Shown: positions 6,503 through 60,712 of the stretch, piece by piece
Layout: every line of letters begins with the position of its first letter
How positions within the stretch are numbered: position 1 is the stretch's first letter
Origin: Symbiobacterium thermophilum
GTDB taxonomy: Bacteria; Bacillota; Sulfobacillia; DYFQ01
NCBI GenBank assembly: GCA_020725105.1
Contig: DYFQ01000005.1
Coordinates: 1 to 63,273, forward strand
DNA length: 63,273 nucleotides
Direction: 5' to 3'
Notes under the pieces: generated by a model
What the model was told of the DNA's origin: nothing
The model's database searches: none
Seen by the model: the letters and a program-made list of their open reading frames with translations, nothing else
Made by a program: the position numbers and the translations under genes

Positions 6503-7345
6503 CTACACCGGGTGGGCGATCCAGCCCAGAACCCCGGGCCCGGTGTGGCAGCCGATGACCGCGCCGATCTGCCCGATCAGCATGTCCTCGACGTCGAGCT
6601 TGGCCGCCAGGGCGTTCTTGAGGGCCTCCGCCTCCTCGGGCGCCGCGCCGTGCACCACGGCCGCCCGGACGCGGGCGCCTCCCAGCCGCTCGGCGGCGAT
6701 CTCCGCCAGGCGCGGGATGACCTTGGGCTTGCCCCGGACCTTCTCGAAGGGGGCGACCACGCCGTTGTCCAGGGTCAGGACGGGCTTGATCTTGAGGAGC
6801 CCGCCCAGCAGCGCCTGGGCCTTGCCGATCCGCCCGTTCTTCTCCAGGTACTCCAGGGTGTCCACGGCGAAGAAGACGTGCGACCGGTCGATGACCCGCC
6901 GGGCCGCGCCCAGGATCTCCGCCCGGTCCGCCCCGGCCTCGGCCGCCCGGGCGGCCGCCAGGACGGCCAGCCCCACGCCGAGGGAGGCCGAGCGCGTGTC
7001 GAGGATCTCGATGTCGAGCCCCGGCAGCATGTCCCGGGCCATGACCGCCGACTGGCAGGTTCCTGAAAGGGCCGCGGAGATGTGGATGGACAGGATCCAG
7101 TCGGCTTTTTTCGCCGCCGCCTCGTAGGCGGCCTTGAAGTCCGCGGGAGACGGCTGGGAAGTGCGGGGCAGGTGGGGGCTCTGACCCAGCTTCCCGAAGA
7201 AGTCGTCGGGGGTCAGTTCCACGTAGTCCTTGTACTCCTCGGGACCGAAGTGAACCGTCAGCGGGACCACGGTGATCCCGTAAAGGTCCACCAGCTGCCG
7301 GGGGAGATCGGCCGTCGAATCGGTAACAATGCGCACCTTGCTCAC
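6503..7345 (-). CDS. DegV family fatty-acid-binding protein (FakB-like)
   Basis: A 280-residue DegV protein: KVRIVTDSTADLP at the N-terminus and the lipid-binding motif HISAALSGTCQSA. FakB proteins bind a free fatty acid and present it to the kinase FakA, which makes acyl-phosphate for PlsX/PlsY. Position inside the fab operon between fabH and fabD, and a FakA homologue at 31.8-33.5 kb, make this role likely here. The start GTG at 7343-7345 has AAGGAGG at good spacing; a TTG two codons earlier is too close. Which fatty acid it prefers cannot be told. Confidence 0.9.
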   Translation of the reverse strand: MSKVRIVTDSTADLPRQLVDLYGITVVPLTVHFGPEEYKDYVELTPDDFFGKLGQSPHLPRTSQPSPADFKAAYEAAAKKADWILSIHISAALSGTCQSAVMARDMLPGLDIEILDTRSASLGVGLAVLAAARAAEAGADRAEILGAARRVIDRSHVFFAVDTLEYLEKNGRIGKAQALLGGLLKIKPVLTLDNGVVAPFEKVRGKPKVIPRLAEIAAERLGGARVRAAVVHGAAPEEAEALKNALAAKLDVEDMLIGQIGAVIGCHTGPGVLGWIAHPV

Positions 7346-47272: not shown

Positions 47273-48454
47273 TCAGCCCCGCGGCCTGGCCAGGTCCGGC
47301 CGGGACCCCAGCCGGCGAAGCGCCTCGTCCAACCGGTCGTCGGGCACGGTCAGGGACAGGCGGACGTAACCCTCGCCGTGGTCACCGTAGGCCGAACCCG
47401 GCGTGACCAGCACGCCCGCGGCGGACAGCACGTGCTCGGCGAAGCCGGCCGAGGTCCAGCCCTCCGGTATGGGAACCCACAGGTAGAAGGTGGCGCTGGG
47501 GGGCCTGACCCGGAAGCCCAGCCGGGCCAGGACCTCAACCGTTCTGTCCCTCCGCTGCCTGTAGAGTCCCGTCATGGCCCGGATGGCCCCGCCGGCCTCA
47601 GACTCCAGGGCATGGATGGCGGCGTGCTGGATGGCGGTGAACTGCCCCGAATCCGTGTTGGTCTTGATCACCCCCAGCGCGCCCAGGGCGTCCGCATTGC
47701 CCACCGCGTAGGCGATCCGCCAGCCGGTCATGTTGAACGGCTTGGACAGCGAGCCAACCTCCACCACCACCTCGCGGGCCCCCGCCACCTGCAGGGGGCT
47801 GGGAGCCGGCGGACCATCGAGCACCAGGTCGGCGTAGGCGGCGTCGTGGCACAAGAGCACCCGGTGCCGGCGGCAGAAGTCTACCACCCCCTCGAAGGCC
47901 TCCAGGTCCGCCACCGCGCCGGTGGGGTTGTTGGGGTAGTTGAGGAACATGAGCCGGGCCCGGCCGGCGACCTCCTCGGGCACCCCCGCCACGTCGGGCA
48001 GAAAGCCCCGTTCCTCCCGGAGGGGCAAGGGGTAGGGCACCCCACCCGCCAGCAGGGACTGGACCCGGTAGACGGGATAGGCGGGGTCTGGGACCAGCGC
48101 CACGTCGCCCGGGTTCAACACCGCCCAGGGCAGGTGGGCCAGACCCTCCTTGGACCCGATGAGCGCCAGGACCTCCCGGTCGGGGTCAAGCTCCACCCCG
48201 TAGCGCCGCCGGTACCAGGCGGCCACCGCCCGCCGGAAGGCCGGACTGCCGGCGTAGTCGGGGTAGCGGTGGTGCTCGGGGTTGGCCGCCTCCCGGCAGA
48301 GGCGCTCCACGATGGCCGGCGGGGTCGGCCGGTCAGGGTCCCCGACCCCGAGGTCGATCACGTCGATCCCCTGGGCCCGGGCTTCTCGCAGCTTCCGTTG
48401 GAGTTCAGCGAAAGGGTACGGTGGCACCTCGTCAAGACGCCGGGCACGCTGCAA
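47273..48454 (-). CDS. dapL: LL-diaminopimelate aminotransferase-like enzyme
   Basis: 393 residues, class I/II PLP aminotransferase. VIDLGVGDPDRPTPPAIVE, LNYPNNPTGAVADLE, CHDAAYADL and the PLP Lys in VGSLSKPFNMTGWRIAYAVG fit DapL from spore formers, which makes LL-DAP for lysine and peptidoglycan. TTG at 48452-48454 behind GGGAGGG gives the family N-terminus (QRARRLDEVPPYPFAEL). A related aminotransferase specificity cannot be excluded. Inserted between yicC and the Ca2+ ATPase relative to Bacillus. Confidence 0.87.
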   Translation of the reverse strand: MQRARRLDEVPPYPFAELQRKLREARAQGIDVIDLGVGDPDRPTPPAIVERLCREAANPEHHRYPDYAGSPAFRRAVAAWYRRRYGVELDPDREVLALIGSKEGLAHLPWAVLNPGDVALVPDPAYPVYRVQSLLAGGVPYPLPLREERGFLPDVAGVPEEVAGRARLMFLNYPNNPTGAVADLEAFEGVVDFCRRHRVLLCHDAAYADLVLDGPPAPSPLQVAGAREVVVEVGSLSKPFNMTGWRIAYAVGNADALGALGVIKTNTDSGQFTAIQHAAIHALESEAGGAIRAMTGLYRQRRDRTVEVLARLGFRVRPPSATFYLWVPIPEGWTSAGFAEHVLSAAGVLVTPGSAYGDHGEGYVRLSLTVPDDRLDEALRRLGSRPDLARPRG

Positions 48455-48497
48455 CGGGCAATCCCTCCCGTCCCGAGGATTTTTTGGCCGGCTGCCG

Positions 48498-51371
48498 CTA
48501 TCCTGCCCGCCCGGCCGGCCGCCGGCCCAGAATCCATCGCCTGAGCGCCGGCCCGCCGCCCCCCACCGCCGACGCGGCCCCCACGAGCACCCAGTCCAGG
48601 GGCGAGAGGGGCACCGTCCGGAACCACGGCGCCAGGGCGGGATGGTGAACCACACCCGCCAGCATGGCCCCGGAAACGATCACCGAGAGGAGAAGCCAGG
48701 GGTTGGACCAGAGCGGCGCGGGGCGGGCCGAGCCCTCGGCGCGGCAGTCGAACACGTGAAAGAGCTGGCAGCCCACGAGGGTGGCGAAGGTCATGGTCCG
48801 GGCCCAGGCCAGTTCCGGGGGCTCCGGGCCGGCGCCGACCGACGCCAGCGCGGCGGACCAGGCGGGCCCCAGGCTCAGGCGGAAGACGGCCAGGGAGGCC
48901 AGGCCGATCAGGGTGCCCCGAACCAGGATCCGCCAGCCCAGGCGGCGGGCGAAAATGCTCTCCCGGGGAGGCCGGGGCGGGCGGTCCATGAGGTCGGAAG
49001 CCCCCGGCTCCATGGCCAGGGCGGTGGCGGGCAGGCCGTCGGTCACCAGGTTCACCCAGAGGATCTGGATGGGGGTGAGCGGGAGCGGCCAGCCGGCCAG
49101 CACCGCCAGGAGCATGACCAGCACCTCGCCGACGTTGCAGGACAGCAGGTAGCGGATGAACTTCCGGATGTTGTCGTAGATGGCCCGGCCCTCTTCCACC
49201 GCCGCGACGATGGAGGCGAAGTTGCCGTCGGTGAGAATCATCGACGCGGCTTCCTTCGTCACGTCGGTGCCGGTCGGCCCCATGCTGATCCCGATGTCCG
49301 CCGCCTTCACCGCCGCCGCGTCGTTGACGCCGTCGCCCGTCATGGCCACCACGTGGCCCTGCCGGCTCAAGGCCTGAACCAGCCGCAGCTTGTGGGCGGG
49401 GGACACGCGGGCGTAGACCGACACCTCCTCGAGGCGGCGTCCCAGCGCCCGGTCGGACATGGTGTCAAGCTCGGCGCCGGTCAACACCGGCCCGTCACCC
49501 AACCCCAGGTCCCTGGCGATGGCCCGGGTGGTCAGCGGGTGGTCGCCGGTGATCATGATCACCCTGATGCCGGCCCGGCGGCACGTCTCGATGGCCTTGC
49601 GGGCCTCGGGCCGCGGTGGGTCCATCATGCCCAGCAGGCCCACGAAGGTGAGGTCCCGCTCCAGTTCCTCACCGTCGCCGGCCTGGGCGGCCGCAACCTC
49701 GGACCCGTCCAGGGCCCGGTAGGCGACGGCCAGGACCCGGAGGGCCCGGCCGGCCATGGCGTCGACCGCCGCCCGGAGGCCGGCCCGGTCCGCGGCGGTG
49801 AGCGGGTTGGGGCCCCGCTCGGTGTAGCTCCGGCTGCACAGGGCCAGGAGCGTGTCGGGGGCCCCTTTGGTCACCAGCACGGCCTGCCCGGGCCCGCCCG
49901 GCCACCACTCGCGCCGGCCGGGCGGGCCGGCGGCGGGCACGACCACCACCGACATCCGCCGGCGGCCGGACTCGAAGGGGACTTCCCCCAGCCGGATCCA
50001 GCCGCGAGCCAGATATTCCGGGGTGAAGCCCGCCTTGGCCGCGGCCACCACCAGCGCCCCTTCGGTCGGGTCTCCCTCCGCCGTCCACCGGCCGCCGGGG
50101 TCGCCTGTCCGGCGGCCGGCTCTCCGGCCCCGGCGTGTCGCCCGGGAAGCCCGCTTCCCGTCGTCGCCGGGCAGGCACTGGAGCCGAGCGTTGGAGGCCA
50201 GTGCCCCCAGGGCCAGGCTCAGGGCGAGGCCCGGCTCCGCGTCCGGCCTGACCGGCTCGCCGTCCCTCGAGAAGTCACCACCCGGCTGGTACCCCGTCCC
50301 TGACACCTGGTACCGCCGGCCGCCGGCCACCACCTCGCGGACGGTCATGGCGCTCTCGGTCAGGGTTCCCGTCTTGTCGCAGGCGATCACGGTGGCGCAG
50401 CCCAGGGTCTCAACGGCGGGCAGCCGCCGGATGATGGCGTTACGCCCGAGCATTCGCTGGACGCCCACGGCCAGCCCGATGGTGACCACGGCGGGCAGGC
50501 CTTCGGGGATGACGGCCACCGCCAGGCTGACCCCGGCCAGGAACATCCGGTACACCGGCTCGCCCCGGGCCATTCCCGCCAGGGCCACGGCGAGGGACAC
50601 CAGGAGGCACACGGCGACCAGGGCCTGGCTGAGGTGGGCCAGCCGCCGCTGCAGCGGCGTGTCGCGTTCCCCGACCGCCTGGATCAGCCCGGCGATCCGG
50701 CCCGTCTCCGTCCTCACCCCCGTGGCCACCACCACGGCGGTCCCCCGGCCGCGCACCGCCGTCGTTCCCAGAAAGACCATGTTCCGCCGGTCGCCCAGGG
50801 GCGTGGCGGGCGCCAGGGCGGAGGTTTGCTTCCGGACGGGCGCCGACTCCCCGGTGAGAATCGCCTCGTCCACTTCGAGGTTGGCCACGCTCACCAGGCG
50901 GCCGTCGGCGGGCACCCGGTCGCCCGTCTCCAGGACCAGCAGGTCGCCCACGACCACCTCCGCCGCGGGGATCCGGGTCAGCCGCCCGCCCCTCAGCACC
51001 CGGGCTTCCGGCGCAGCCATGGCCTGCAGGGCCTGCAGGGCCCGTTCCGCCCGGAACTCCTGGAAAAAGCCCAGACAGGCGTTGAGGATCACGATGGCCA
51101 GGATGGTCAGGCTGTCAGCCATTTCCCCCAGGAGGTAGGCGACGGCGGTTGCCCCCAGCAGGACCAGCATGGTGGCGTCCCTGAACTGGCGCAGGAACAG
51201 GCGGATGGCCGACGGAGGGCCTGGCCCGGGCAGGCGGTTGGAACCCAGGCGTCGCAAGCGGCGGGCCGCCTCGGCGTGGCTCAGCCCCTCCGGCAGCGAA
51301 CCACCCACCCTGGCCAGGGTCTCCTCTACCGAAAGGCTGTGCCAGGCTGCCACCGCGCGTGGGACCGCCAC
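48498..51371 (-). CDS. Calcium-transporting P-type ATPase (YloB-like)
   Basis: About 957 residues of the type IIA family. N-terminal cation-ATPase domain (WHSLSVEETLARVGGSL), actuator TGES in EAILTGESAPVRKQ, helix 4 VAVIPEGLPAVV, phosphorylation site CDKTGTLTESAM, KGAPDTLL, ATGDGVND-type hinge VAMTGDGVNDAAAVKAADIG, and ten membrane helices with NLVTDGLPATAL. A basic insert (ASRATRRGRRAGRRTG) lies in the nucleotide domain. GTG at 51369-51371 with GGAGGTGG is the likely start. Bacillus yloB lies in the same place before yicC. Confidence 0.94.
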   Translation of the reverse strand: MAVPRAVAAWHSLSVEETLARVGGSLPEGLSHAEAARRLRRLGSNRLPGPGPPSAIRLFLRQFRDATMLVLLGATAVAYLLGEMADSLTILAIVILNACLGFFQEFRAERALQALQAMAAPEARVLRGGRLTRIPAAEVVVGDLLVLETGDRVPADGRLVSVANLEVDEAILTGESAPVRKQTSALAPATPLGDRRNMVFLGTTAVRGRGTAVVVATGVRTETGRIAGLIQAVGERDTPLQRRLAHLSQALVAVCLLVSLAVALAGMARGEPVYRMFLAGVSLAVAVIPEGLPAVVTIGLAVGVQRMLGRNAIIRRLPAVETLGCATVIACDKTGTLTESAMTVREVVAGGRRYQVSGTGYQPGGDFSRDGEPVRPDAEPGLALSLALGALASNARLQCLPGDDGKRASRATRRGRRAGRRTGDPGGRWTAEGDPTEGALVVAAAKAGFTPEYLARGWIRLGEVPFESGRRRMSVVVVPAAGPPGRREWWPGGPGQAVLVTKGAPDTLLALCSRSYTERGPNPLTAADRAGLRAAVDAMAGRALRVLAVAYRALDGSEVAAAQAGDGEELERDLTFVGLLGMMDPPRPEARKAIETCRRAGIRVIMITGDHPLTTRAIARDLGLGDGPVLTGAELDTMSDRALGRRLEEVSVYARVSPAHKLRLVQALSRQGHVVAMTGDGVNDAAAVKAADIGISMGPTGTDVTKEAASMILTDGNFASIVAAVEEGRAIYDNIRKFIRYLLSCNVGEVLVMLLAVLAGWPLPLTPIQILWVNLVTDGLPATALAMEPGASDLMDRPPRPPRESIFARRLGWRILVRGTLIGLASLAVFRLSLGPAWSAALASVGAGPEPPELAWARTMTFATLVGCQLFHVFDCRAEGSARPAPLWSNPWLLLSVIVSGAMLAGVVHHPALAPWFRTVPLSPLDWVLVGAASAVGGGGPALRRWILGRRPAGRAG

Positions 51372-51487
51372 TGCTTCGCCAACCACCTCCAGGGGAGCAA
51401 TGAAAACGTCCCCGCGGGCCGGGTGGGCGTGGGAACGCCGGTGTAAGGGTATGGTGGGCCGCAAAGGGCCAGAACCGGGTAATCAGT

Positions 51488-53232: not shown

Positions 53233-54381
53233 TCAGCCGGCAAACGCCCGGTCGGGCTCGGCTCCCCCATGGGCTTCCTCTCCTTCCGCCGCCAGTCGCC
53301 GGATGGCCGGGGCGTCCAGGCCCTGAAGGCCCAGCCGCTCAGCGGTACGCCCGCCGGACCAGTAGTCTTCCCCGTGGACGATCGACGCCAGCTGGATGAT
53401 GCTCTTGATCACGGGCGTGGCAACCCCCAGCAGGTCGCCCAGGGATGCCATGGGCACCAGGCTGGCCGGCACGTCCTCGAAGATGTAGCGGTTCTCCATG
53501 CTGGCCGGAGCCTTGATCCCCGCGTAGCCGGCGTTGTCCAGCACCGCCTCGTGGAGCGTGTTGCCCCGGGCGCCGTAAGCGATCTCCAGCCACTCCCGGG
53601 CGCTCATGGCCCTGACGCCAAGGGCCTCGGCCACCGCCAGCCGTTCGGCGTCCATGGCCTCCATCACCCGGGCCACCGACGGGGTGATGCCGTCGTGGTA
53701 GTAGTCAAAGTCCCCGTGGGTCGACTCGATGCGCCCGGCGTTCAAAAGGGTAGGCGCCGGGTGGAAGATGGCGCCCACGTTGTCCAGACTGGTCTTGAGC
53801 ACGCTCTCGGCCGCCACGAACTGTGGGAACGCCGCCCCCAGGATCCTGACGACGCCGGCGGTCCGGCCGGCCGGCATTGCCGCCACCGGCACGGCGTTCT
53901 TGATCCGGAAGATGCGGGACATGGCCGGGCCCGCGCTCCGGCTGGCGAAGACGAAAGTCTGGGTTTCCGCCACCACCGCCCGGCCACGGTAGCCGGCGCG
54001 CCGGAGTTCGGCCCGGAACTCCAGGGCCCCACCCGTACGGCCGGGGTGGAGCACCACCACGTGGTCGTCCCGCAGGAAGGGCGCGCAGCGCCGGGCGACC
54101 TCCCCGTGGCCGGAAGCCGGGACGACCACCATGACGGCGTCGGAGCCCCCGAGGACCGCCTCCATGTCGGTGGTGGCCAGTTCCACCGGTCCGAAGCCGC
54201 GCATGATGCCGTTCAGCTCGATGCCGCCCCTGGCCGCCACCGGTTCGATGCGGGGCGCCGAGCGGTTCCACAACCGGACCGGTAACCCCCTGGTGCCCAG
54301 GTAAGCCGCCATGGCCAGCCCGCCGTGGCCCGCCCCCAGGACGGCAAAGCGTGGCGTGGATGATTCGCGCGGTGCTGCCAC
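53233..54381 (-). CDS. NAD/NADP octopine/nopaline dehydrogenase family protein
   Basis: 382 residues. Rossmann motif FAVLGAGHGGLAMAAYLGTRG at the N-terminus and the C-terminal opine dehydrogenase domain with DNVGAIFHPAPTLLNAGRIE and DYYHDGITPSVARVMEAMD. Family enzymes reductively couple an amino acid to a 2-oxo acid (opines, metallophores) or reduce pantoate-like substrates; the substrate here is unknown. GTG at 54379-54381 lies behind GGAGGGAGGGGG. First gene after the c-di-AMP riboswitch terminator, followed by the cobalamin-domain gene. Confidence 0.88.
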   Translation of the reverse strand: MAAPRESSTPRFAVLGAGHGGLAMAAYLGTRGLPVRLWNRSAPRIEPVAARGGIELNGIMRGFGPVELATTDMEAVLGGSDAVMVVVPASGHGEVARRCAPFLRDDHVVVLHPGRTGGALEFRAELRRAGYRGRAVVAETQTFVFASRSAGPAMSRIFRIKNAVPVAAMPAGRTAGVVRILGAAFPQFVAAESVLKTSLDNVGAIFHPAPTLLNAGRIESTHGDFDYYHDGITPSVARVMEAMDAERLAVAEALGVRAMSAREWLEIAYGARGNTLHEAVLDNAGYAGIKAPASMENRYIFEDVPASLVPMASLGDLLGVATPVIKSIIQLASIVHGEDYWSGGRTAERLGLQGLDAPAIRRLAAEGEEAHGGAEPDRAFAG

Positions 54382-54405
54382 TGTCGTCCCCCTCCCTCCA
54401 GGCGA

Positions 54406-54434
54406 CAAAAAACCCCCGGGGAGGCTCCCCGAGG
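54406..54434 (-). terminator. Riboswitch expression-platform terminator
   Basis: CCTCGGGGA/TCCCCGGGG with a 3-nt loop, then GTTTTTTG on the reverse strand, between the riboswitch and the opine dehydrogenase ribosome-binding site. Ligand binding would be expected to favour termination. Confidence 0.85.
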
Positions 54435-54457
54435 GAAACTCAGGTGCCCCCTCCTCC

Positions 54458-54598
54458 GACGCTTGCGAGGTTAGCTGACGGGCTCGGGTTGAGGATTCCC
54501 CTACCGGCGCCGGACCCCGGCGGCCCGACCCGGATTCGCCCCGGATGCTTGGGTCCCCCGCTCCCCCGGTCTCGTCCGGCCGGGGGATTCAGCGATCC
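54458..54598 (-). ncRNA. Cyclic-di-AMP riboswitch (ydaO-yuaA type)
   Basis: Reverse strand carries the class landmarks in order: GATCGCTGAATCC, GGGGGACCCA, GGGGCGAATCC, TAGGGGAATCCTCAACCCGA and CCCGTCAGCTAACCTCG with CAAGCGTC closing the first stem against GATCGCT. Most of these bases match the ydaO consensus as I know it. The ligand is c-di-AMP, which turns expression off. It lies in a 335-nt leader of the opine dehydrogenase gene. Confidence 0.9.
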
Positions 54599-54722
54599 CT
54601 GGAGGCCCACTGGCGACGCGTTCGCCCACTTATGACCTTTGGACCCTGTCCGCTGCCGGTCTCACCTCGCGGCTGGCCGGCGACACGGGACGCCGGCCCA
54701 AGCTCGGGATTGGGCGCGCACC

Positions 54723-54751
54723 ATTATATCCAAAGCGATCCAGGGTGTCAA
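54723..54751 (-). promoter_or_regulatory. Consensus SigA promoter of the riboswitch unit
   Basis: TTGACA (54746-54751), 17-nt spacer, TATAAT (54723-54728): both hexamers perfect. The -35 hexamer contains the TGA stop of the upstream ypjA-like gene. Start site near 54716; the first 115 nt of leader also hold a perfect 8-bp hairpin (GGCCGGCG/CGCCGGCC). Confidence 0.9.
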
Positions 54752-55491: not shown

Positions 55492-57238
55492 CTAGTAACC
55501 GCGGTGGCTTCTGATCAGCGGCCAGATCTCGGGGTCCTCCGTTCCCAGGCGCCAGATGGCGATGCCCGCCAGCCGGTGTTCGCTCACCAGGCGCAGCTTG
55601 AACGAGGTGCTCTGCCGGTTCTCGTAGTAGACCGTCCGGGCCTGGCCACCGCTGGTGTAGTGGAAGAAGGGCACCTGCGCCCGGTCGTCCCACTGAACCC
55701 GCACCCCGTGCCGGGCTGCAAGTGCCGGGGCCTCGGCGGCCTTGATCATCGCGCCCCAGCCGCCGGCGGCCGGCCAGTCGTAGCCGTAGGCCGCGATTCC
55801 CAGGTAAATCTTGTTCCTGGGCACCACCGTCACCGCGTACCGGACCACCTGCTCGACCCAGCCGATGGAGGCGACGGGCCCGGGACCCTGGCCGATCCAG
55901 TGCTCGTCGTAGGTCATGATCGCCAGGTGGTCGACGATGCGTCCCAGGGCCGCGTAGTCAAAGGCCCCCGACCAGCCGTGCCCCGGGTCGTCGCCGGTCT
56001 TGGCGGGGACCGCGATGCTCACGTGGTGGCCCGTGGGCCGCAGCACGTCGGCCAGGTCCTGCATGAAGCTGGTCAATGCCCGGCGCTGGGCCGGGTCCAC
56101 GTTCTCCAGATCGATGTGAACACCGTCATAGCCCTGGTTCCTGACCACGCTGACGATGGCGTCGAGCGCCCGGCTCCGCACCGTCGGGTTGGTCAGTACC
56201 TGGCCCGCCGCGTACCGGTCGAAGTTGCCGCTGTTGAAGTTGTGGATCAGGGCGTAGACCTTGATGCCGCGCTGTTTCGCCAGGGTCATGAGCCCGGCGT
56301 CCGCCTGGCCGGACACCCGGCCCTGGGCGTCGATGGCGTAGAGGAACGCCGCCACCTCGTCCACCGGCGGGTTGGCGGCCAGGGAGTTGTAGGCCGTGCG
56401 GTCGCCGGGCCAGTCCACCGGGTAGTAACCCAGCACCCGGTAACGCTGCCCGCCTGCCGGCGGCGGTGGGGCTGGCTGGCGGCTGCTCCGGAGCCGCAGG
56501 CGTTGCCGCCTGGTCCCCCGCGGGCCGGCTTGCCGCCTGATCCGCCCCGGCGGCATCGCCCGCCGGTGGGGCGGCCGCAACGGGTCTGCCGAGCTTCGCC
56601 TGGTTGATGGCGTGCGCCGTCACCGCGGCAGCCTCAGCCCGGGTAGCACTGGCTTCCGGCGCGAACCTGGCTCCGTCCCGCCCGCGCATGAGGCCGCTGG
56701 CCACCACCCAGGCCGTCTCACCGCGGGCCCAGTCGGGGATGGTGTCGCCGTCCACGAATCCGGCCAGGACACCCTGGTTCGCCGCCGCCGGCGAGTAGCC
56801 TGTGGCCCGGGCCAGGATGACGGCTAGTTCGACCCGGGTGACCGGGGCAAGCGCCCGCAGGGTCCCGTCGGGGTAGCCGCGGAGAATGCCGGCGCTGGAA
56901 GACCACCACACCGCCGGCCGGGCCCAATCGGGGACGGCGGCCCAGTCGGCATATCCCGGCGGGCTGGCGCCTGGCTCGCCGGTCGCGGTCGGCCCCGCGG
57001 CCCGCGCCAGCATGGTGACCACCTCGGCGCGGGTCACCGGCCGGTCGGGCCAGAAGCGGCCGTCGGCGTCTCCCAGGGCAACGGCTGCCTGCTGGAGCGC
57101 TTTCACGTACGGTTCCGCCCAGTGGCCCCCGACGTCGGAGAAGGCCTGCACGCGGGCGGAATAGCCCCCGCCGGTCGCCAGAGCGAGCACCCCTGCGGTG
57201 AGGCAAAGGGCCAGGAGCTTGCCATGTCGTCTTCGCAT
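55492..57238 (-). pseudogene. SLH-domain / glycoside hydrolase 18 protein, frameshifted
   Basis: Two overlapping frames make one protein. The first (from ATG 57236-57238) has a signal peptide (KLLALCLTAGVLALATGGG) and three S-layer homology repeats (FSDVGGHWAEPYVKAL, YADWAAVPDWARPAVWW, FVDGDTIPDWARGETAW), then a Pro/Ala linker. The GH18 domain continues in another frame from PPAGGQRYRVLGYYPVDW, with catalytic DGVHIDLENVD, to 55492. Removing one C from the CCCC run at 56468-56471 joins them cleanly. Intact relatives are spore-cortex or cell-wall hydrolases. A sequencing error, real mutation or +1 frameshifting are all possible. Confidence 0.8.
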
Positions 57239-58786: not shown

Positions 58787-60712
58787 GTGCCCCTCGACGC
58801 GCTGGTCGCCCGGGCCGTCGCCCGGGAACTGGATGCCCGGCTCTCGGGCGCCCGTATCTCTCGCATCTTCCAGCCTCGCGCCACGGCCCTGGAGCTCGAG
58901 TGCTACCGGCGGGACGAAGCCGGGGGCCACGAGTACTGCCTGTTCGTGTCGGTGGCGCCGGACGATTTTCGCTGCCACCTGGTGGAGGGGCTCGAGCCAC
59001 ACCCCCCGGCGCCGCCGGCCTTCTGCATGCTCCTGCGCAAGTACCTGGAGGGCGCCCGCGTGACCGGCGCCGGCCAGCGCGGCCTGGACCGGATCCTGGA
59101 ATTGCGGGTGGCCCGCTCCGGGCCTCAGAACCACTGCGGCGAGTTCACCCTGGTGCTGGAGCTCACCGGCCGCCATTCCAACGTGGTGCTGGTGGGACCC
59201 GACGGTCGGGTCCTGGACGCCTTGCGGCGCGCCCGCCCCGCCCCGGGCGAGCCGGGCCGCGGCCTGGCGCCCGGCCTCGAGTACGAGGCTCCCGCGGCCG
59301 GGCCGGCCGCCGTCCGGCTGGACGAGACGCCCGCCGGCGGCTGGGAGGCGGTGGTCGCCCGGCTGGCCGACGAGGCTTCTCGGGGGGAAGGGGGCGAACG
59401 CGGGCCAGCCTGGCGCCGACTGATGGAGACCGTGGAGGGTCTGGGTCCCGTGGTGGCCCGGGAGGTCCTCCACCGCTCGGGACTGGCCCCGGACGCGCCG
59501 GCCGGGGAGCTGTCCGGCCGGGCGGCGCCGCTGGCCCGAACCCTGTCGGAGCTTGCCGAACAGGTGCGGGCGGCGGCCTTTTAGCCCACCGTCTACCTTG
59601 GCGCCGGCGGCCGGGTACTCGACGTGGGGGCCGTGGCGCTGACTCACCTGCCGGCCGCCGAGGTCAGGAGTTTCCCCACCATGAACCAGGCCCTGGCGTT
59701 CTACGCCACCCACCTGGTGGCCCACCGGCACCGGGCCGAAGGCCGGCGTCTGATCGCCCAGGCCCTGGCCCGGGCGGTGGGACGGGCGGCGGGGACCCTG
59801 GAAAAGCAGCGCGCCGACCTGGTCGGGGCCCGGGACCACGAGCGCTGGCGGCTGTTCGGTGAACTCCTCATGGCCAACCTGCACCGGTTCCCCCGCGCCG
59901 GGCCCAGCGCCGGCGGCGCCGGCCTGAGCCAGGTGGAAGTGACCAACTACCACGATCCGGAGCTGCCCCCGGTCACCATCCCGCTCGACCCCTCTCTCTC
60001 CCCGGCGGACAACGCCGCCCGGTACTTCGAGCGGTACCGCAAGGCCCGGCGGACCGTGGAGGCGGTCGGGCGGCGGATGAACGAGACCCGGGCCGAACTG
60101 GAGTACCTGCGGGGGGTGGAAGCCGCCCTGGCCCTGGCCGAGGACCCCTCCGACCTGGCCGACGTCGCCGCCGAACTCAGGGAACAGGGTATCCCGGTGC
60201 CGAGGCTGCCCTGGGAGCCCCCGGCTCCGCCGCGGCGGCCCGGAGCCCGCGCCGCCCCTGAACACCCTTCCTGCCTGCGCTACGTCGGGCCAGGCGGCTA
60301 CGAGATCCTGGTAGGCAAGAACAACCGCCAGAACGAAGTCCTGACCCTCCGGGTGGCCGGTCCCGACGACTGGTGGCTGCACGCCAGGGACTACCCCGGG
60401 GCCCACGTGATCTGCCGCCCGGACCCGCGGGGCGGAAGCGACCCCCGCCAGGAAGAAGCCGCGATCGTCGCCGCGGCCCGGCTGGCGGCGGCCTGCTCAG
60501 CTGCACGGCAGTCAAGCCGCGTCGCCGTGGACGCGACCCGGCGGCGGCACGTCAGAAAGCCCAGGGGCAGCCGGCCAGGCTTCGTGGTGTACGACCACCA
60601 CCGCACCCTCACGGTCGAGCCGCTCCGCGATCCGGAAGCCGCGGGCCTGGTCGTTGACGTCCGGAATTTACCTCTCGGCCGCCCCCGGATTTGCCTTCCC
60701 CGCCGCGAATGA
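58787..60712 (+). pseudogene. rqcH: RqcH (NFACT family) with in-frame amber codon
   Basis: RqcH recruits tRNA-Ala to stalled 50S subunits to add Ala tails. The N-terminal part (VPLDALVARAVARELDARLS; GLDRILELRVAR; GRHSNVVLVGPDGRVLDALR) is followed by TAG at 59582-59584, and the same frame resumes at once (PTVYLGAGGRVLDVGA) through coiled coil to the NFACT-R domain (DWWLHARDYPGAHVICR) and stop at 60712. No frame change is needed. It may be a nonsense mutation, a CAG-to-TAG read error, or readthrough. Next to a Ca2+ ATPase-containing block as yloA-yloB in Bacillus. Its end overlaps the PBP start (ATGA). Confidence 0.85.

Follow-up and report, generated by a model that had tools for sequence, protein, structure and literature searches.

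The stretch of DNA analysed here (the window, 63,273 nucleotides from Symbiobacterium thermophilum) carries a c-di-AMP riboswitch ahead of an operon that pairs an opine dehydrogenase with a predicted B12-dependent mutase, and this riboswitch-dehydrogenase-mutase order is seen again and again, in no fewer than 27 bacterial families. The riboswitch, its linkage to the operon and the enzyme families are solid. For the output of the operon, we give about an even chance to a c-di-AMP-repressed pathway leading to an opine- or dipeptide-like compound, most likely a compatible solute, the structure and role of the product being guesses. The features of the region are as follows.

54751-54723, minus strand: SigA-type promoter, TTGACA-17-TATAAT
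54605-54715, minus strand: transcribed leader preceding the aptamer, ~110 nt, GC-rich, as placed from the promoter
54604-54445, minus strand: c-di-AMP riboswitch aptamer, ydaO/yuaA class (RF00379)
54435-54407, minus strand: intrinsic terminator, 10-bp stem (54435-54413) then T6, from the sequence and a shuffle test
54399-54388, minus strand: Shine-Dalgarno-like GGAGGGAGGGGG, 5' of GTG 54381
54381-53233, minus strand: opine dehydrogenase, CENDH type
53270-51564, minus strand: fused B12-binding (MutS-like) and MutE-like carbon-skeleton mutase
48498-51464, minus strand: Ca2+-type P-type ATPase, 3' of the mutase
47273-48655, minus strand: LL-diaminopimelate aminotransferase, after the P-type ATPase

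A preliminary description of the region, made from the sequence alone, had named a perfect SigA promoter, a ydaO-class leader and a U-tailed terminator, and all three were borne out. The promoter agrees with the consensus at 12/12 positions (mean of 0.0 in shuffles). The Rfam covariance model of the ydaO/yuaA class matched the leader with 72.0 bits (E=9e-15, gathering cut-off 38 bits) over the full model, positions 1-134, without truncation, and this is the sole match within the 2.74-Mb genome, which encodes two c-di-AMP cyclase-domain genes. When the aptamer was aligned with 36 others preceding the same operon (37 sequences), two-sided changes appeared at 16 of the 30 consensus pairs. Taken by itself the terminator is marginal when compared with shuffles (1 observed, 0.8 expected); a strict scan detected terminator-like hairpins 3' of 27 of the 53 riboswitches of the dehydrogenase-mutase operon. 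No Rfam match was obtained with cmscan for the GC-rich segment between promoter and aptamer. The leader is a genuine c-di-AMP riboswitch with a predicted response to its ligand, and it resembles the ydaO/yuaA class in its full-length covariance match, its terminator expression platform and the osmotic, K+ and wall regulon found in the bacterial class; its difference lies in the target, an opine-dehydrogenase/B12-mutase operon. Riboswitches of this kind are known to turn expression off and, given this behaviour and the presence of the terminator, the one in the window would act as an OFF switch.

The gene that follows had been taken for an octopine/nopaline-type dehydrogenase, and sequence comparisons agree. 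Its product, the only PF02317 protein of the genome (181 bits), contains both the NAD(P)-binding and the octopine-dehydrogenase domains at full length, and its closest solved relative is CENDH, N-(1-D-carboxylethyl)-L-norvaline dehydrogenase (1bg6; 280 bits over residues 11-363, 415 bits with a family profile). The longest open reading frame reaches back to TTG 54408, but since this codon sits in the T run of the terminator, GTG 54381 behind GGAGGGAGGGGG is the more likely start. H208, R299 and D304 are invariant in 61 sequences and align with His212, Arg324 and Asp329 of octopine dehydrogenase (3c7a), which we take to be its catalytic residues, the positions coming from the alignment. The likeness to CENDH and octopine dehydrogenase thus covers the whole two-domain protein and the catalytic His/Arg/Asp, while the family found here differs in being nearly always paired with a mutase and in carrying N-R-[ST] after the second strand in place of an acidic residue. 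This motif is the pattern of NADPH-dependent enzymes in related families; the dehydrogenase is likely to be NADPH-dependent as well, and the motif suggests that it works in the reductive, synthetic direction.

The second gene, left unnamed in the preliminary description of an opine-dehydrogenase unit, changes the interpretation of the operon, as it encodes a putative B12-dependent mutase; its frame overlaps the 3' end of the dehydrogenase gene. The protein has a B12-binding domain; among 30 homologues this domain (PF02310) was present in all (30/30) and the MutE domain of glutamate mutase (PF06368) was matched weakly in 19. An AlphaFold model (mean pLDDT 88.6) found the E chain of glutamate mutase as its best solved match in Foldseek (6h9e_B, E=1.5e-14), and its N-terminal part matched chain S of the same enzyme. 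The histidine that ligates cobalt corresponds to His29 in 58 of 59 sequences, and a Cys stands for the Asp of the DxHxxG motif in 54. Alignment of its profile with that of 30 canonical MutE proteins is remote (E=1e-4) and indicates that the fold and some residues are retained (the Tyr177 and Glu330 positions). The residues R66, R100 and R149 of glutamate mutase, which we assume to form the arginine claw holding the carboxylates of glutamate, are not aligned: in this remote alignment R66 and R149 become His171 and Tyr250, the R100 position is variable, and the invariant R169 and R248 of the fused mutase lie two residues from the R66 and R149 positions. Because the glutamate-holding arginines are not aligned, we rejected the identity of a canonical glutamate mutase for the fused protein. 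What it has in common with glutamate mutase (MutS/MutE or GlmS/GlmE, with GlmL) is the B12-binding domain, the MutE-like barrel and, in some operons, GlmL; it differs by the single fused chain, the Cys in DxHxxG and the claw. The mutase accessory factor GlmL is encoded in a few operons, in one of them (L258) between the dehydrogenase and the mutase (597 bits, cut-off 475), which supports a predicted activity as an adenosylcobalamin mutase. GlmL as an obligatory partner was rejected, given that three genomes with both riboswitch and gene pair (G021, G081 and G183) gave no GlmL/MutL match. Methylaspartate ammonia lyase was not seen as a conserved neighbour of the dehydrogenase-mutase loci.

To place the operon in a wider context, we surveyed 101 genomes of the class to which the source genome belongs. 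A match to the dehydrogenase was present in 73 of them, in some only to the NAD-binding domain, and the riboswitch in 82, with 207 matches in total. The mutase lies directly 3' of the dehydrogenase in nearly all of the 60 best in-class loci. In a sample of 398 genomes of the phylum, which included a few from the class, 87 contained the fused mutase, and of 40 out-of-class loci that were read the dehydrogenase was nearby in 37 and a riboswitch in front in 16, from 11 families. The pairing of dehydrogenase with mutase is a conserved feature across Bacillota. Within the class the riboswitch precedes the operon in 37 places from 16 families, including the window, mostly directly before the dehydrogenase; ten of the 37 stand before an ATP-grasp gene leading into the dehydrogenase, one before the mutase alone (L116) and one before the dehydrogenase and then an aminotransferase (L079). 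In one of the out-of-class operons (L275) two c-di-AMP aptamers occur in tandem (6749-7138). A survey of genes downstream of the riboswitch, proposed beforehand as a check, has in this way returned opine dehydrogenases repeatedly, and with these 37 in-class and 16 out-of-class placements chance co-occurrence is rejected, simple arithmetic giving well under one co-location expected among 61 loci. No link of the riboswitch with opine dehydrogenases at large was seen: the more distant PF02317 paralogues, of less than 40% identity, were not beside riboswitches when coordinates were inspected by eye. An OLE RNA (RF01071, 474 bits) was also noticed at 4172-4824 of L273, near its riboswitch-dehydrogenase operon.

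Loss of the leader from relatives that keep the gene pair had been put forward as an argument against the link, and part of what we found goes in that direction: about 25 of the 61 in-class dehydrogenase loci, nearest relatives included, keep the pair with no riboswitch leader. The pattern is clustered, the presence of the riboswitch on the mutase tree requiring 8 changes compared with 19.2 expected with shuffled labels, so that the link is common though not obligatory, and osmotic control of the pair is not universal. Loci of this riboswitch-less kind often neighbour rqcH, a P-type ATPase, dapF and dapL, a surrounding that the window shares in part, and the P-type ATPase also follows the mutase in riboswitch-less relatives such as G042. 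In the window itself a GC-rich hairpin occupies the gap between the mutase and the following genes. On the other side of the promoter, SLH domains and a GH18 (chitinase/SleL-like) domain occur in two overlapping frames (55492-57238, minus strand), which probably represent a single gene disrupted through a frameshift or an assembly error, and a stop divides an RqcH/NFACT-like gene into two frames (58787-60712, plus strand), possibly the result of a frameshift or sequencing error.

The first genes 3' of about 90 other in-class riboswitch matches (a few being this operon again) show the company that the operon keeps. Targets related to transport and solutes comprise KimA-like permeases, KdpA, TrkA, betaine ABC components, trehalose-phosphate synthase and a Na+/H+ exchanger; wall hydrolases, an oligopeptide-type binding protein, BshA and further ATP-grasp genes were also found. 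With 37 of the 207 in-class matches, the dehydrogenase-mutase operon is among the commonest targets of the riboswitch in the class, and it keeps company with K+ and solute functions there. At ten loci (L043, L057, L166, L167, L172, L180, L187, L194, L199 and L201) the riboswitch stands directly before a glycosyltransferase; the one that was scored matches BshA, of bacillithiol synthesis (445 bits, cut-off 274). At L191 (145-957) it precedes a gene for phosphosulfolactate synthase (ComA), possibly another solute pathway.

A third enzyme often accompanies the pair, either a ligase of the ATP-grasp type related to D-Ala-D-Ala ligase (Ddl), with scores well under the cut-offs for that enzyme, or an AsnB-type synthetase, most of which retain the N-terminal Cys, with Ser in its place in two. 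The two kinds of enzyme seem to replace each other, and both can form amide bonds; G081 has riboswitch, dehydrogenase, mutase and AsnB together, while the operon in the window has neither an ATP-grasp nor an AsnB gene. N-acetylglutaminylglutamine amide, an amino-acid-derived osmolyte, is known to be made by a ligase of the ATP-grasp kind working with an AsnB-type amidotransferase. The resemblance to that operon is in the manner of working only (the same two kinds of enzyme and an amino-acid-derived solute), whereas the building-block enzymes differ, there is no acetyltransferase and the AsnB scores far under the cut-off of the family model, and we rejected synthesis of this compound. Ddl-like ATP-grasp genes, three of them divergent, were also seen with a c-di-AMP riboswitch of their own away from the dehydrogenase (L163, L165, L169 and L216), in the last case followed by an oligopeptide-type binding protein.

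Putting these elements together, we propose that at high c-di-AMP (K+-replete cells, low external osmolarity) the aptamer would fold and the terminator halt transcription, and that a drop in c-di-AMP would let both the dehydrogenase and the mutase be produced. The mutase, using adenosylcobalamin in the His-on mode, may act on the carbon skeleton of either an amino acid or the opine itself and rearrange it, and the NADPH-dependent dehydrogenase would couple an amino acid reductively to a 2-oxo acid; the Ddl-like ligase or the AsnB-type synthetase present in many species might then make an amide bond. This order of steps is itself conjectural. The end product would be a small molecule akin to an opine or a dipeptide, its most likely role being that of a compatible solute. 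An opine-like compound had been suggested before, and the dehydrogenase is indeed of that family, but because the second gene encodes a B12 mutase and an amide- or peptide-bond ligase is so frequent, the product is probably something other than a plain amino-acid/keto-acid opine.

The same preliminary description had offered a compatible solute or a wall-linked product, and of these the solute, at about an even chance, is the best of the options. It is unlikely, though worth weighing, that the operon produces or alters a building block of the cell wall, such as an unusual crossbridge or an amidated amino acid, with c-di-AMP serving wall homeostasis. The relationship of the ATP-grasp proteins to D-Ala-D-Ala ligase, the AsnB-type synthetases, the dapF/dapL/rqcH neighbourhood of riboswitch-less relatives and the frequency of wall hydrolases among riboswitch targets in the class all fit such a role, but the ATP-grasp scores are well under the ligase cut-offs, the dap neighbours occur mainly at loci that lack the riboswitch, and no Mur-type, transglycosylation or export gene figures among the conserved neighbours. 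We consider it slightly more improbable that the two enzymes form an overflow route for redox or nitrogen, with opine formation as the sink for reductant or amino acids, tuned by c-di-AMP with no osmotic role. In invertebrates opine dehydrogenases classically act as terminal redox enzymes, and many relatives have riboswitch-less versions; however, the NR[ST] motif speaks for NADPH and biosynthesis and not for re-oxidation of NADH, ATP-consuming ligases would be costly in a sink, and c-di-AMP control is repeated in at least 27 families. An opine-type metallophore is very improbable: staphylopine-type metallophores use an opine dehydrogenase and a P-type cation ATPase follows in the window, but genes for a nicotianamine-synthase-like protein, a racemase or an exporter are absent from the conserved neighbours, the known pathway has no room for a B12 mutase, and regulation is through c-di-AMP instead of a metal sensor.

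We found no description of a link between the c-di-AMP riboswitch and opine dehydrogenases in the open-access literature searched, in keeping with the unfamiliarity remarked on when the leader was first noticed, although an earlier listing in tables of riboswitch-associated genes is possible. The link is unfamiliar but no isolated curiosity, being that of a recurrent operon. A conserved gene set marked by a riboswitch gives a handle on what is probably an undescribed product, and with only two to three enzymes the operon is short enough for this product to be searched for in vitro and by metabolomics. That we are dealing with a hitherto undescribed B12-dependent pathway to opine- or dipeptide-type compatible solutes of a new class, found widely in deep-branching Bacillota and controlled directly by c-di-AMP, has in our estimate slightly less than an even chance. 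Should the product be an osmolyte, it would bring to osmoadaptation both a new class of chemical and a new role for coenzyme B12, and c-di-AMP would directly govern the synthesis of a new solute besides the uptake of known ones.
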